Shown in pieces: positions 19,485 to 60,009 of a DNA stretch of 64,000 nt. Numbering within the stretch: position 1 is the first letter of the stretch; each line of letters opens with the position of its first letter. Under the pieces are notes generated by a model. The model was not told the origin of the DNA. It worked only from the letters and a program-made list of their open reading frames with translations, and made no database searches. Source of the stretch: Desulfuromonas sp. CSMB_57 (GTDB lineage Bacteria > Desulfobacterota > Desulfuromonadia > Desulfuromonadales > Syntrophotaleaceae); the NCBI RefSeq assembly GCF_020194955.2, contig NZ_JAFCIY020000006.1:62001-126000 (forward strand). Direction: 5' to 3'. The translations under genes were made by a program, and so were the position numbers.

Positions 19485-20067
19485 TTTTCGCACCTCGCTT
19501 AAAATAAAAAATAGTACAAAAGTTTTTTACTTAAAATTATTTTTTTCAAAAGGTCCATATTCAATGTCTTACCTTGCGTTGCTTGCTTTGCCTGAATAGA
19601 ATTGCTTTGCTGGTAGAATTATAGCACCAAAATCAATATCGTCTGACGGCAAAAAAATAATTTAATAAAAAATTTTCTATAATTATTTAATTATAAATTA
19701 TAGCCGGAGCACCTTTTTTCATCAAAACACACACCATATCGATGTATTTTATTAGAATACGCTTTTCATTTTTGATGCTCGCGGGTTTCGTCTCGTTTCG
19801 ATTTTTAAGTTCTACAGATAAGGTTCTTGGCCCAACATGCCGTGACTTAACGAATCGGCTAAAAGAAAATTTGAAGGTTTGCCTACCAAATATTACCAGA
19901 TGGGGCAGGCATTGATGACCTTCCATGGGGAAAAGTGCAAAACCAGAAAGATATGTTCACCTTCCATCTTGAAATGATGCTCTGGAATTTTAAAATGATT
20001 TATAGTTTACTGGTTGGAAAAATGCTCCCCCCATTTGTCGATTAACGCTTTCACACGGATTTTCCCT
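19485..20067. other. Divergent A+T-rich intergenic region, 583 nt
   Basis: The region separates the leftward carrier-protein operon from the rightward etfBA pair, so promoters for both should lie here. The sequence between about 19500 and 19760 is extremely A+T-rich. A 79-codon leftward frame at 19687-19926 shows no recognisable family or good ribosome binding site. I could not fix promoter boxes. Confidence 0.5.
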
Positions 20068-20865
20068 ATGCATTTTATTGTTTGTATCAAGCAGGTTCCG
20101 GACACCTCTGAAATCAAGATCGATCCCGAAACCAACAGTTTGATCCGCGAAGGGGTTACTGCCATGGTAAACCCCTTCGACATGTACGCTATTGAGGAGG
20201 CTTTGAGGCTTAGGGAGGCGATGGGAGGCTTGGTCACGGTCATGACCATGGGACCGCTCCAGGCTGAAACCGCACTGCGAGAAGCCATGGCCATGGGAGC
20301 AGATCAGGGCATCCTCCTTTCCGATCCGGCCTTTGCCGGAAGCGACACCTGGGCAACAAGTTATACCCTGTCCATGGCGTTACGCAGAATCGGCGATTAT
20401 AGCCTTATCCTTTGCGGAAAACAGGCGGCAGATGGAGATACGGCTCAAGTTGGGCCAGGAATTGCGGCTCATATGGATTTACCCCAAATTACCTTTGTAA
20501 GGCAGATCGAACGGATTTCCCCAACCGGAATTGTTGCTGCTCGCATGTTGGATGATGGAAGTGAAATTCTTGAGAGTTCACTGCCGTGCGTACTCACGGT
20601 CGTCAAGGAGATCAATACGCCGCGCCTGCCCACCCTTAAAAACATTCTCGAGGCTAAGAAAAAAGAAGTCCTGCATTGGACGGCAAGGGATCTGGATTGT
20701 GATTTTAAACGATTGGGCAGGACCGGGTCATTGACCAGGGTCCTCAAAATATTCAGCCCGCCTATGCGTTGCCAGGGACAGACATGGACCGGAGAGACCA
20801 AAGAGATGATACAGGCTTTGATGGAAAAGGTATCTGAGGCGATTTTTTCAGCCAAATCCAAGTAG
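20068..20865 (+). CDS. etfB: Electron transfer flavoprotein, beta subunit
   Basis: A 265-residue EtfB beginning MHFIVCIKQVPDTSEIKIDP, with INPFD-type MVNPFDMYAIEEALRLRE and the AMP/FAD-binding segment CGKQAADGDTAQVGPGIAAH. EtfAB is a soluble heterodimer that takes electrons from acyl-CoA dehydrogenases. The D..T...I..GV..MVNP pattern is like that of the anaerobic ETFs that can bind a second FAD, but bifurcation cannot be concluded from this. It is followed after 19 nt by the ferredoxin-EtfA gene. These are the only rightward genes in the 36-kb polysaccharide locus. The ATG at 20068 gives the family N-terminus; the Shine-Dalgarno is weak. Confidence 0.93.
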   Translation: MHFIVCIKQVPDTSEIKIDPETNSLIREGVTAMVNPFDMYAIEEALRLREAMGGLVTVMTMGPLQAETALREAMAMGADQGILLSDPAFAGSDTWATSYTLSMALRRIGDYSLILCGKQAADGDTAQVGPGIAAHMDLPQITFVRQIERISPTGIVAARMLDDGSEILESSLPCVLTVVKEINTPRLPTLKNILEAKKKEVLHWTARDLDCDFKRLGRTGSLTRVLKIFSPPMRCQGQTWTGETKEMIQALMEKVSEAIFSAKSK

Positions 20866-20884
20866 GTTAACTGGAGATGTTTTA

Positions 20885-22084
20885 ATGAAATCAATTTCCA
20901 TCAAAAAAATGCTTTGCACCGCGTGCGGATCGTGTGAAACCATCTGCCCTTGGTGCGCGATTACCATGATCCATGGAATCGCAAATATAGATTTGGATAA
21001 ATGTACATTGTGCGGCGTATGTCTTGACGCCTGCCAAACCGGAGCAATCGAAATATGTAATGTTCGGCCGTCCTCCCTGGATTCATCCGCTTTTCAAGAT
21101 GTTTGGGTGTTCGCGGAACAAAAGAATGGCGTTGTCCAGTCCGTGACTTATGAATTGCTCGGCGAAGGGCGCAAACTCGCCAATGCCTTAAAAGTGTCAC
21201 TCTGCGCTGTACTTTTGGGTCATGAGATTAAATCGCAGGTTCAGGTCCTGATTGCCCGCGGCGCCGATCGCGTCTTTTTGGTAGAACACCCCGGATTGGC
21301 TTTTTTCCAAGATGAACCCTATGCAAAAGTCCTGATAGATCTGTTGCAACGTTACAAACCGACGATTTTTCTCTGCGGGGCTACCGCCATCGGCCGCAGT
21401 CTTGCTCCCCGGGTTGCGACGATTATCGACGCCGGCCTGACGGCAGACTGTACGGGATTGGAGGTTGACCCGGAAACAGGTGGCTTGCTGCAAACCCGCC
21501 CTACTTTCGGCGGGAATGTCATGGCGACCATAATCTGTCCGAATCATCGTCCCCAGATGGCCACTGTACGGCCCAAGGTCATGAAGGAAGCCGTTGCCGA
21601 TTTTGGGCGCCAAGGCGAATTGATCGTGGAACAGGTGGCCGAAGCTCTGCTGTTGTCACGCACTCAGCGGTTACGCTTTGAAACAGAGTCGGAGACAACC
21701 GTCAATCTCTCCGAAGCCAATATCATCGTTGCCGGCGGTCGCGGATTGCAGACTCCGGAAAATTTTCAATTGATTCGAGAGCTTGCCGAAGTATTGGGAG
21801 CCGGCGTCGGTGCCTCGAGGGCGGCGGTGGATGCCGGCTGGATTGCCTATTCTCACCAAGTGGGCCAGACCGGCAAAACGGTTTGCCCCAAAATCTATAT
21901 TGCCTGTGGAATTAGCGGTCAGATTCAGCACTTGGCCGGCATGTCTTCCTCGGACATGATTATTGCCATCAACAAGGATGAGGAAGCCCCCATTTTCCGG
22001 GTGGCTGATTATGGGTTGGTCGGCGATCTATTCGAGATTTTGCCGTTATTGACTCGTGAATTTCGCAAACTCCTCAAAAGCTAG
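20885..22084 (+). CDS. etfA: Electron transfer flavoprotein, alpha subunit, with N-terminal 2x[4Fe-4S] ferredoxin domain
   Basis: A 399-residue fusion. Residues 1-60 form a ferredoxin domain with cysteines 11/14/17/21 and 40/43/46/50, each in CxxCxxCxxxC spacing. The rest is EtfA, ending in the conserved FAD domain: GASRAAVDAGW, QVGQTGKTV, IACGISGQIQHLAGM and AINKDEEAPIF. The FeS domain suggests that electrons can also be exchanged with ferredoxin, as in ETFs of anaerobes such as Acetobacterium caffeyl-CoA reductase. In this setting it is the likely partner of the flavoprotein at 18080-19228. It converges with the ATP-grasp gene across a 43-nt gap without a terminator I can identify. Confidence 0.93.
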   Translation: MKSISIKKMLCTACGSCETICPWCAITMIHGIANIDLDKCTLCGVCLDACQTGAIEICNVRPSSLDSSAFQDVWVFAEQKNGVVQSVTYELLGEGRKLANALKVSLCAVLLGHEIKSQVQVLIARGADRVFLVEHPGLAFFQDEPYAKVLIDLLQRYKPTIFLCGATAIGRSLAPRVATIIDAGLTADCTGLEVDPETGGLLQTRPTFGGNVMATIICPNHRPQMATVRPKVMKEAVADFGRQGELIVEQVAEALLLSRTQRLRFETESETTVNLSEANIIVAGGRGLQTPENFQLIRELAEVLGAGVGASRAAVDAGWIAYSHQVGQTGKTVCPKIYIACGISGQIQHLAGMSSSDMIIAINKDEEAPIFRVADYGLVGDLFEILPLLTREFRKLLKS

Positions 22085-35200: not shown

Positions 35201-35245
35201 CAAAAAAAACCGTCGGAATAAGGATGATCCTTGTTCCGACGGTTT
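35201..35245 (-). terminator. Strong rho-independent terminator after pectate-lyase-like gene B
   Basis: AAACCGTCGGAA (35207-35218) pairs perfectly with TTCCGACGGTTT (35234-35245), extended by AAGGA/TCCTT around a TGA loop with one mismatch between. On the minus strand the hairpin is followed by eight T residues (complement of 35202-35209). It ends the riboswitch-controlled gene B transcript. Confidence 0.93.
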
Positions 35246-35280: not shown

Positions 35281-37092
35281 CTACCGGCCTTCCACCTCCG
35301 CCGCCATCTTATGCAGGACTTCCTCGATGTTGGTATAGCCGTTTCCGCTGCTATCCACATTGGGATTAGCCGGGATGGTGAAGGTCCGCTTGGTTGCCGT
35401 CAGGTTCGGCCAACCGCCGACTTCACTCGTGCTGTTGATGATCTTGCCGTTGCGGTTGCGGACATGCCCGACAATCCGGGTATCGACGGGGTCCCGATCC
35501 ACCGGGCGGGCTCCGGCCGAAGCCAATACCCGGCTTTCCACTTCACTGCTGGTACGCAGCACCAGGGATTTATGCCAAATGGGGCGACTGGTGACGAGGT
35601 AGGAAGTACTGGTGTGTCCGCTGCCCGGTGCCTTGTTGTCATTAAAATATACCTTGGTGCCGGAAACGGCGCTGCTTTCCACCTTGATGCCGGCGGCACC
35701 GGTTTTGGTGTTGGGACCGGCGATGAACATATTGCCCTCGGCACTGACGATGTTCGGGCCGTTGTTGGAACCGATGGACATGAAGTTACCGTACGCCGCG
35801 CCGGCATTATAAAACAGGTTGTTGACCACCACAGCGGTAACGTCCCCTTTCAGACGTGGGTTACGGTCGTTGTTGTGGGCAAAAAGATTGCCTACCAGGG
35901 TGATATCCCGGGCGCCTTCACCCAGCAGCAGACCCATGGAATGGGAGCCTTCGGGATGAATGGATGAATGCAGCGCCTCGCTGAGCAGGTTGTTGCTGAA
36001 GGTTATGTTTTTGAGGGCATACCAGGTGCTCATGTTTTCGTCCACCGCCCAGGAGGCGCTGACATGATCGACCACAACGTTATAGGCATTGGGTCCGAGC
36101 ACCTGCAGAGCATCGCGATTGGAGGGGCTAGGTCCGGAAGAGGAATCGCCGGGACGGATGCGGATATGTTGCACCAAAACATCGTTGGTCGTGATGCGCA
36201 TGCCGGCGCCGCGCAGGTTGATGCCGGGCGAGGGAGCCGTCTGGCCGGCGATGGTCACATAGGGCTTGCTGACGTTCAGGTCCGAAGCCAAATTGATGGT
36301 ACCGCCGACTTCGAAAACAATGATCCGGGCACCGCTGGTATCGATAGCGGCCCGCAGGGAACCGGCACCGCTGTCGTTGAGGTTGGTCACCTTGATGACC
36401 TGTCCGCCCCGTCCCGCCTTGGTTTCCGTGCCGTGGCCCATGGCGCCGGGAAACACGGGCAGATACCCCAGGCTGCTGGTGCTGGTCGAAGTCGAGCTGG
36501 TGCTGGTGGAAGTCGGGGTAGTGCTGGTACTCGTGCTTGTAGAGGTAGAGGTAGAGGTAGAGGTAGAGGTAGAGGTAGAGGTGCTGGTGGTGGTTGCCTT
36601 GTCGTTGTCGACAATGGTCACCGTCGCGCTGGTGATGCTGCCCAGAGTGGCGCCGCCGGTTGGATTCCCAAGGGAGACATTAAAGGTTTCATTGCCTTCG
36701 ACCAGTTTATCGTCCACGATGCTGATGCTCTTTACCTTCTGGGTTTCCCCATTGGCAAACTTCAGTGTGGTCCAACTGAAACCGCTGTAATCGGCGGGCG
36801 TACTGGCGGTACCCGCCAGGGTGCGGATATCGACAGTGACCGCCCCTGAAGACCCGTTAACTCGCTTAACAATGATGTCGACCTTCCCGGCCCCTTCGTT
36901 GACGGAATAGGTGCTGGCGGAAAATTCAAACTTTCCCGGGTTGACGGTGGTTGTGGATGTCGTCGTTGTTTTCACAATCCTGGTCCAAGCATGGACCGAG
37001 CCGATATTGAACAGCGGAATCAAAACCAAAAGTCCCAAAGAAAATTTCAACCATTGCCAGTTTTTAAAATATTGGTTTGGATTTTTTTTCAT
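35281..37092 (-). CDS. Secreted Calx-beta / Thr-Ser linker / pectate-lyase-like protein B
   Basis: A 603-residue exported protein in three parts: a signal peptide (hydrophobic about 15-35), a Calx-beta domain (about 52-165, with FSASTYSVNEGAGKVDIIVK and DDKLVEGNETFNVSL), a low-complexity Thr-Ser linker (about 166-208), and a pectate-lyase-like beta-helix (about 210-603) closely similar to protein A (GAMGHGTETKAGRGGQ, TIAGQTAPSPGINLRGAG). It should be a cell-surface or matrix protein binding or cleaving polysaccharide. No PEP-CTERM or LPXTG tail is present. It has its own regulatory leader: a sigma-54 promoter, a c-di-GMP-I riboswitch and a terminator upstream, plus a strong terminator downstream, so it is a single-gene unit under c-di-GMP control. 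The Shine-Dalgarno is AGAGGAAACG. Confidence 0.88.
   Translation of the reverse strand: MKKNPNQYFKNWQWLKFSLGLLVLIPLFNIGSVHAWTRIVKTTTTSTTTVNPGKFEFSASTYSVNEGAGKVDIIVKRVNGSSGAVTVDIRTLAGTASTPADYSGFSWTTLKFANGETQKVKSISIVDDKLVEGNETFNVSLGNPTGGATLGSITSATVTIVDNDKATTTSTSTSTSTSTSTSTSTSTSTSTTPTSTSTSSTSTSTSSLGYLPVFPGAMGHGTETKAGRGGQVIKVTNLNDSGAGSLRAAIDTSGARIIVFEVGGTINLASDLNVSKPYVTIAGQTAPSPGINLRGAGMRITTNDVLVQHIRIRPGDSSSGPSPSNRDALQVLGPNAYNVVVDHVSASWAVDENMSTWYALKNITFSNNLLSEALHSSIHPEGSHSMGLLLGEGARDITLVGNLFAHNNDRNPRLKGDVTAVVVNNLFYNAGAAYGNFMSIGSNNGPNIVSAEGNMFIAGPNTKTGAAGIKVESSAVSGTKVYFNDNKAPGSGHTSTSYLVTSRPIWHKSLVLRTSSEVESRVLASAGARPVDRDPVDTRIVGHVRNRNGKIINSTSEVGGWPNLTATKRTFTIPANPNVDSSGNGYTNIEEVLHKMAAEVEGR
36539..36580. 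repeat. Perfect hexanucleotide tandem repeat (GTAGAG)x7
   Basis: Seven uninterrupted GTAGAG units on the plus strand encode (Ser-Thr)7 on the minus strand, within a longer degenerate Ser-Thr tract from about 36465 to 36600. A 6-nt unit keeps the frame, so slippage would change linker length without breaking the gene. Confidence 0.95.
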
Positions 37093-37130
37093 CGTTTCCT
37101 CTTTTAGGTGTTTTTTAAAAGCCCAAAAAC

Positions 37131-37160
37131 AAAGCCTTTCCCGGATCCAAGAAAGGCTTT
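37131..37160 (-). terminator. Intrinsic terminator (expression platform) in the leader of gene B
   Basis: AAAGCCTTTC and GAAAGGCTTT form a 10-bp stem around a 10-nt loop. On the minus strand it is followed by GTTTTTGGGCTTTT. It lies between the c-di-GMP aptamer and the ATG of gene B. Its minus-strand 3' arm contains GGCTTTG, perfectly complementary to CAAAGCC in the aptamer core, which offers an alternative pairing. Confidence 0.8.
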
Positions 37161-37203
37161 TTCAGATCAATCCTGTCATATTTCATCCCCATGAAAATAA
37201 TAA

Positions 37204-37280
37204 CAGTTTCGGCAACCCGGCTGTCCAAGGACATGGACCCGCGGCTTTGCGTCATCAGATTGCTCTGACTTTGCCCTTTT
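37204..37280 (-). promoter_or_regulatory. Cyclic-di-GMP-I (GEMM-I) riboswitch aptamer
   Basis: On the minus strand the leader shows, in order, the GEMM-I elements: AAGGGCAAA, a TCAGA-GCAA-TCTGA hairpin with a GNRA loop, the nearly invariant GACGCAAAGCC, a second hairpin containing GTCC...GGAC, and AGCCGGGTTGCCGA. This matches the RF01051 layout known from Vibrio Vc2 and many Geobacter leaders. It should bind c-di-GMP and control read-through of the terminator at 37131-37160 into the Calx-beta/pectate-lyase-like gene. Whether ligand turns the gene on or off cannot be settled by reading. Confidence 0.9.
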
Positions 37281-37430
37281 CGAAATAATTATTAACTTTT
37301 TAAATCATGGCTGAGTCCCTTTCAACGGTGGAGGAAAAGTGATAATTAGAATTTCTATTTGGCCCATCCTCCTGCTGAGATAACGCAATCAATAAAACAT
37401 TCAGCAAATTTCTTTTACTGCCCTTCTAAT

Positions 37431-37447
37431 AGCAATGCCTGTGCCAA
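37431..37447 (-). promoter_or_regulatory. Sigma-54 (RpoN) promoter for gene B
   Basis: On the minus strand TTGGCACAGGCATTGCT matches the -24/-12 consensus (TTGGCAC-N5-TTGCT) with the required 12-base offset between GG and GC. Transcription would start near 37420, about 140 bases before the riboswitch and 330 bases before the ATG. An enhancer-binding protein would be required; none is encoded nearby. Confidence 0.75.
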
Positions 37448-37592
37448 GGAAGCTAACCCCCTATAAAAGTGAAATATTTTCATATTATTGGAGAAATTTT
37501 ACTATATTTTTAAATTATATTTCTTTATTTTTTAAGAATTTTTAAAATGGTAGAAATGTCAGAAGATATGACATACATATAATTTCAAAAAG

Positions 37593-59765: not shown

Positions 59766-60009
59766 TTTCCCTGCTCCTGATAAATGGGCAAAAAAATAAC
59801 CTCCGGTGGTGCCGATCCGCGACTCAGGGCTGTTCGCTCTGCCATATTACTCATGCCCACCCGGGACCCTTCAGGCTTCCCGTTCCGAGACGGGCCTGCT
59901 CACCGGGACCTCATCGGGGCATTTTCTGGAAGTGTTGGCGAACATCGATCAGCGGTGTCGGCACCCCAGAGGTAGCCATTCTCCGTCTTCTACAAGTATT
60001 TTAGCACAT
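59766..60009. other. Intergenic gap, 244 nt, nothing recognised
   Basis: Between the 70-residue protein start and the AI-2E-family stop. Short frames are present on both strands, none with a credible ribosome binding site or family resemblance. No terminator with a T-run is seen. Confidence 0.4.

Follow-up and report, generated by a model that had tools for sequence, protein, structure and literature searches.

A predicted c-di-GMP-I OFF switch in a conserved sigma-54 leader ahead of a lyase-like gene of Desulfuromonas

The Cd1 c-di-GMP-I riboswitch of Clostridioides difficile has an OFF architecture in which the terminator coexists with the aptamer, whereas in Geobacter pilM, an ON switch, the two are mutually exclusive (PMC9262584). 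The base at position 20 distinguishes c-di-GMP aptamers from cGAMP aptamers (PMC9481103; PMC9262584). On the protein side, RbmB of Vibrio cholerae is a polysaccharide lyase with a predicted parallel beta-helix that belongs to the matrix cluster and is involved in dispersal (PMC11637428).

We analysed a 64,000-nucleotide stretch of Desulfuromonas DNA (the window) and found that a riboswitch of a known family, part of a composite leader that is conserved in relatives, precedes a lyase-like gene; we predict that it acts as an OFF switch. As in Cd1, a class I aptamer is combined with a separate, coexisting intrinsic terminator and with an antiterminator that unfolds the aptamer, and the predicted sign is OFF. 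Unlike Cd1, the antiterminator uses the 5' half of the aptamer and not mainly its 3' strand, and the leader has a sigma-54 promoter and a secreted, lyase-like target. The locus shares with the GEMM-Ib cGAMP riboswitches of Geobacter (pilM, pgcA) a related aptamer family, a transcriptional platform and surface or extracellular targets, but it differs from pilM, with its ON sign, overlapping terminator and cGAMP pocket, in having G20 and a separate terminator. In sequence and structure the aptamer scores above gathering for Rfam RF03167 (c-di-GMP-I-GGC) and shows no difference from that family; the promoter, mini-ORF and target go beyond the family definition. The likeness to RbmB is one of description, that of a lyase-like protein at a polysaccharide or matrix cluster. 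An earlier note on this DNA lacked the sigma-54 promoter, the mini-ORF and the long antiterminator, and also the terminator that follows the target gene (Table 1).

Table 1. Features of the leader, the target gene and their flanks, in window coordinates.
Feature	Position	Strand	Basis
TGTCA-N7-TGACA inverted repeat, candidate enhancer-binding-protein site	37557..37573	(-)	read from sequence; about 110 bp upstream of -24
sigma-54 -24/-12 promoter TGGCACAGGCATTGCT	37431..37446	(-)	consensus match, rpoN present, conserved spacing
Shine-Dalgarno-like AAAGGGA of mini-ORF	37316..37322	(-)	
mini-ORF ATG ATT TAA, start 24 nt upstream of aptamer	37300..37308	(-)	recurrence in leaders, pattern scans
c-di-GMP-I-GGC aptamer (GEMM-I)	37207..37284	(-)	RF03167 and RF01051 matches, compensatory changes
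predicted 5' antiterminator strand (P1 5' strand, J1/2, P2 5' strand and loop)	37258..37284	(-)	pairs with 37172-37146
predicted 3' antiterminator strand (linker end and terminator 5' arm: GAUUG, UCUGA, GCCUUU, UUGGA)	37146..37172	(-)	interaction energy vs shuffles
intrinsic terminator of expression platform	37131..37160	(-)	13-pair stem, -17.0 kcal/mol, GTTTTT directly after
Shine-Dalgarno AGAGGA of target gene	37097..37102	(-)	read from sequence
CDS of putatively secreted 603-aa protein	35281..37092	(-)	Pfam, NCBIfam, PDB matches
terminator after target gene	35202..35244	(-)	CCGTCGGAACAAGGATCATCCTTATTCCGACGG then T8, -23.7 kcal/mol

Aptamer family and ligand preference

A cmscan of the full 64-kb window placed RF03167 on the aptamer with 63.9 bits (E 8.8e-13; gathering cut-off 59 bits). 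The earlier note had called the riboswitch c-di-GMP-I and proposed an Infernal search against RF01051; that model also matched the same aptamer significantly (69.9 vs 35 bits gathering), but by clan competition the best family is the RF03167 GGC variant. The GEMM-I core, hairpin and AGCCGGGTTGCCGA strand lie on the minus strand as had been described, and the range given there, 37092-37280, clips 4 nt of the aptamer. Among 12 homologues, both sides had changed in 9 of the 21 predicted aptamer pairs, and the P2 and P3 helices were backed by compensatory change. Judged by its sequence, the riboswitch is a genuine member of the known c-di-GMP-I family.

The position which we take to be G20 of Vc2, from the GCAAA motif and the Vc2 numbering, is occupied by G (GGGCAAA), as it is in every readable leader of the class described below (sigma-54 promoter, GEMM-I, secreted modular protein). 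This base predicts c-di-GMP over cGAMP, so that the c-di-GMP preference which the earlier note had proposed to check at this position is upheld in silico, and we infer c-di-GMP as the ligand. That the window aptamer senses cGAMP instead seems highly unlikely, given this G here and in the other leaders, and given the canonical Asp in 25 of the 26 readable GGDEF domains of the genome. The one remaining domain (L101, G000:C18:197573-198037), which has Ser and not Asp at the Hypr position, a Hypr/GacA-like signature (PMC6456294), speaks for cGAMP sensing, as do two other GEMM-I aptamers of the same genome with A at position 20. cGAMP may be made and could serve these A20 aptamers.

Terminator, antiterminator and direction of switching

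The platform terminator follows the end of the aptamer at a distance of 46 nt, with no overlap. It stands before the ATG, as had been noted; its stem has 13 pairs, G-U included, against the 10 bp then given. In the full-length fold the terminator (T5xT3 0.95) formed together with the aptamer (P2 0.87). The minimum-free-energy structure of transcripts ending after the terminator 5' arm and before its 3' arm is an antiterminator of about 21 bp, in which the aptamer 5' half pairs with the linker and the terminator 5' arm, and at these intermediate lengths the P2 probability drops from about 0.9 to 0.01 while the antiterminator forms. The interaction is worth 11.9 kcal/mol, compared with 3.06 +/- 1.84 in dinucleotide shuffles, of which 1/1500 was as strong. 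Pooled over 17 leaders, the antiterminator complementarity gave a Fisher p of 5.5e-5, a value that ignores kinship among the leaders; in several relatives it was not significant (z below 1). These folds describe equilibrium, not kinetics, and leave the ligand out of the model; when the whole leader was folded, the antiterminator reached only about half occupancy (T5 x aptamer 0.48), and P2 was already down to 0.42 at baseline.

Like a Cd1-type OFF switch, the locus has a terminator that stands apart from the aptamer and can form while the aptamer is folded, and a predicted antiterminator that would disrupt the aptamer before the 3' arm is transcribed, more weakly with the full leader; a terminator that overlaps and excludes the aptamer, as in a pilM-type ON switch, was not found there. 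Coexistence of terminator and aptamer, as in C. difficile Cd1, makes an OFF switch most likely, and the gene would probably be shut off at high c-di-GMP. The sign that the earlier note had preferred, in which ligand lets the terminator form, is retained by these in silico results.

The switching helix proposed there fared differently. In free RNA, CAAAGCC in the aptamer core would pair with GGCUUUG in the 3' arm of the terminator, and the complementarity exists, an exact 7 bp with -12.1 kcal/mol as a duplex. Enforcing it at full length, however, carries a penalty of 11.1 kcal/mol (-50.1 vs -61.2), and the 3' arm is the last to emerge, when it already faces its own 5' arm; the longer antiterminator is preferred. 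AAAGCC/GGCTTT is, moreover, a common terminator sequence, which counts against this helix, and we consider it very improbable indeed as the switch.

c-di-GMP more often switches matrix genes on, which counts against an OFF reading. General c-di-GMP biology favours an ON switch, through which c-di-GMP would increase expression of the matrix protein as is usual for biofilm genes, and Geobacter pilM, whose GEMM-Ib riboswitch senses cGAMP, is of this kind (PMC9262584). We nevertheless regard an ON switch as unlikely here, since the terminator is separate from the aptamer and coexists with it, and the folds yielded no ligand-stabilised antiterminator.

Our preferred reading, to which we give a probability of about 0.62, is a kinetically controlled OFF switch of the Cd1 type acting on one lyase-like gene. 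A sigma-54 promoter would start a leader of roughly 330 nt that carries the riboswitch and the intrinsic terminator before a single secreted Calx-beta/pectate-lyase-like gene. At low c-di-GMP, the aptamer 5' half would re-pair with the linker and the 5' arm of the terminator as these emerge, and the resulting antiterminator would allow RNA polymerase to read through. c-di-GMP bound before the linker and 5' arm emerge would hold the aptamer, leaving the 5' arm free to form the terminator. Aptamer family, terminator, promoter match, conservation and antiterminator complementarity were computed; ligand, direction, kinetics and enzyme role are what we infer. With a sigma-54 promoter and an OFF switch, the target gene would require low c-di-GMP in addition to an active enhancer-binding protein, and we predict that it is on only under that combination.

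Target protein and gene surroundings

The target begins with an N-terminal hydrophobic segment, which suggests that it is secreted, and continues with a Calx-beta domain (residues 52-164), a Ser/Thr linker and a pectate-lyase-like domain (about 207-580). Its earlier description as a Calx-beta/pectate-lyase-like protein was borne out by matches to Calx-beta PF03160 (Pfam; E 5.9e-23; 81.6 bits, above the gathering cut-off of 27), pectate lyase PelZ NF041900 (NCBIfam; E 8.9e-97) and the PDB pectate lyase 9buj (E 3e-29), and the protein has a conserved DRNPR motif. The PelZ match, at 324.6 bits, falls below the equivalog cut-off of 840, so the protein is related to PelZ and by that rule not of the same function. 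Scanning the genome contigs with the target recovered only two distant relatives, and an AlphaFold model from three sequences was unusable (pLDDT 34.5). Ser/Thr dipeptide repeats make up the linker that joins Calx-beta to the lyase-like domain (window 36475-36600 (-)).

The gene adjoins an exopolysaccharide cluster, at the cluster edge, and the cluster contains a second pectate-lyase-like gene. The strong terminator with T8 after the target, which is absent from the list of the consensus terminator scan, implies that the switch most likely governs the target gene alone, which would make it a monocistronic unit. The same terminator weakens the idea of riboswitch control over the entire exopolysaccharide operon.

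A matrix remodelling role, as suggested earlier, fits the similarity of the target and its position beside the exopolysaccharide cluster, and would connect c-di-GMP via RNA with an enzyme-like, secreted protein of the matrix, not with polysaccharide synthesis. The beta-helix proteins of exopolysaccharide clusters include epimerases; this, together with the adjoining cluster and its second pectate-lyase-like gene, makes it a fair question whether the target is structural or epimerase-like and modifies the polysaccharide during synthesis. We see this as possible, if short of probable: the protein resembles pectate lyases and conserves the DRNPR motif, and V. cholerae RbmB, a matrix-cluster lyase, has a part in dispersal (PMC11637428). 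A remodelling lyase, in the sense of a matrix-trimming or release enzyme produced when cells leave the sessile state, would fit the requirement for low c-di-GMP.

By eye, the exopolysaccharide cluster also holds two electron-transfer-flavoprotein-like genes on the opposite strand (window 20014-22084 (+)), with acyl-CoA-dehydrogenase- and AMP-ligase-like genes nearby.

Promoter, mini-ORF and recurrence in relatives

The sigma-54 site, 162 nt upstream of the aptamer, matches TGGCAC-N5-TTGCW exactly, and the genome encodes RpoN. TGGCACAGGCATTGCT is the sole exact match in the window to the narrower consensus TGGCACNNNNNTTGCW; the looser consensus TGGCAYNNNNNYTGCW has 27 exact matches genome-wide, this site included, against 10 in the reversed control. 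Transcription would start near 37422, and the spacing of the site is similar in homologous leaders. The inverted repeat farther upstream could be a chance occurrence.

A sigma-54 promoter, GEMM-I and a secreted modular protein occur together in about 11 genomes from six families of the order, the own genome included; in about ten genomes other than this one, the gene after GEMM-I encodes a secreted modular protein that is either homologous or of similar build. When the protein search was widened to 136 genomes of the order, just one more genome came up. Thirteen of 14 leaders, those from one genus not being independent of each other, have a sigma-54-like site (-200 to -20, at most one mismatch), compared with 0.6% of mononucleotide shuffles and 7/24 background GEMM-I loci; since two of the 13 sites carry one mismatch and a third is only 35 nt upstream, we count 10 as convincing. 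Most relatives have a terminator after the target gene, and two keep the sigma-54 site while lacking GEMM. A literature search of partial coverage found no c-di-GMP riboswitch ahead of a Calx-beta/pectate-lyase gene.

The least expected part of the leader is the mini-ORF. A Shine-Dalgarno sequence followed by ATG, 1-3 codons and a stop, with the ATG at -18 to -27, was found in 8/14 leaders (window included) from two families only, where dinucleotide shuffles predict 0.096, an optimistic enrichment since the criteria were tightened following initial inspection. None of 33 other GEMM-I loci had such a frame. Two patterns combining mini-ORF and aptamer core, run over the 136 genomes, returned 8 loci, all of the sigma-54/GEMM-I/secreted-protein class, and their reversed controls were empty; 7/8 were already in the leader set. 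The new one, in G007, combines GEMM-I with an exact sigma-54 site and a terminator, and its secreted modular protein has a C-terminal sequence that by eye is like that of the C71 paralogue described below. Both patterns missed G011, where the frame is longer.

The lambda bar minigenes are frames of ATG, one codon and stop; they often encode fMet-Ile and are not known to lie in riboswitch leaders. The window mini-ORF has the same form and, unlike them, stands in such a leader. Promoter, mini-ORF and switch might form a compound device in which the ribosome-binding start-codon-stop frame ends 9-18 nt before the aptamer, a ribosome parked on it would reach the aptamer edge, and the translation state would tune or insulate the c-di-GMP decision on transcription; we offer this tentatively, and it is somewhat doubtful. 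In the window leader, masking the ribosome footprint raised P2 from 0.42 to 0.95; other leaders showed no such rise, so insulation by the ribosome is only a suggestion. Conservation of the mini-ORF suggests that translation and the riboswitch are linked, a connection for which we found no description; a literature search of partial coverage returned no mini-ORF ahead of a riboswitch.

The C71 paralogue (L013), in which Calx-beta is joined to another domain, shares the promoter and GEMM-I, but its leader is without a terminator, a point against the reading preferred above. Its C-terminal domain gave no NCBIfam or convincing PDB match, and no Pfam match was found outside Calx-beta; by eye, this domain is common to both secreted GEMM-I targets, L013 and L136 (G007). 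Three other GEMM-I loci of the genome, all without a sigma-54 site, precede genes recognised by eye except for GGDEF: a CheW/MCP gene (G000:C1:63247; G20), an MCP-like gene (G000:C93:51005; A20) and a GGDEF-EAL gene (L014, G000:C57:188069-188146; A20) whose GGDEF motif is canonical and whose EAL-like part was seen by eye. At the last, c-di-GMP turnover may be under feedback from cGAMP or of a mixed kind. Elsewhere in the window, a 6S RNA match (59796-59975 (-)) was barely above gathering (46.8 vs 46.4 bits). In another genome, a tandem GEMM-I (L115:15317-15620, G023), each copy with its own terminator, stands before a secreted modular protein.
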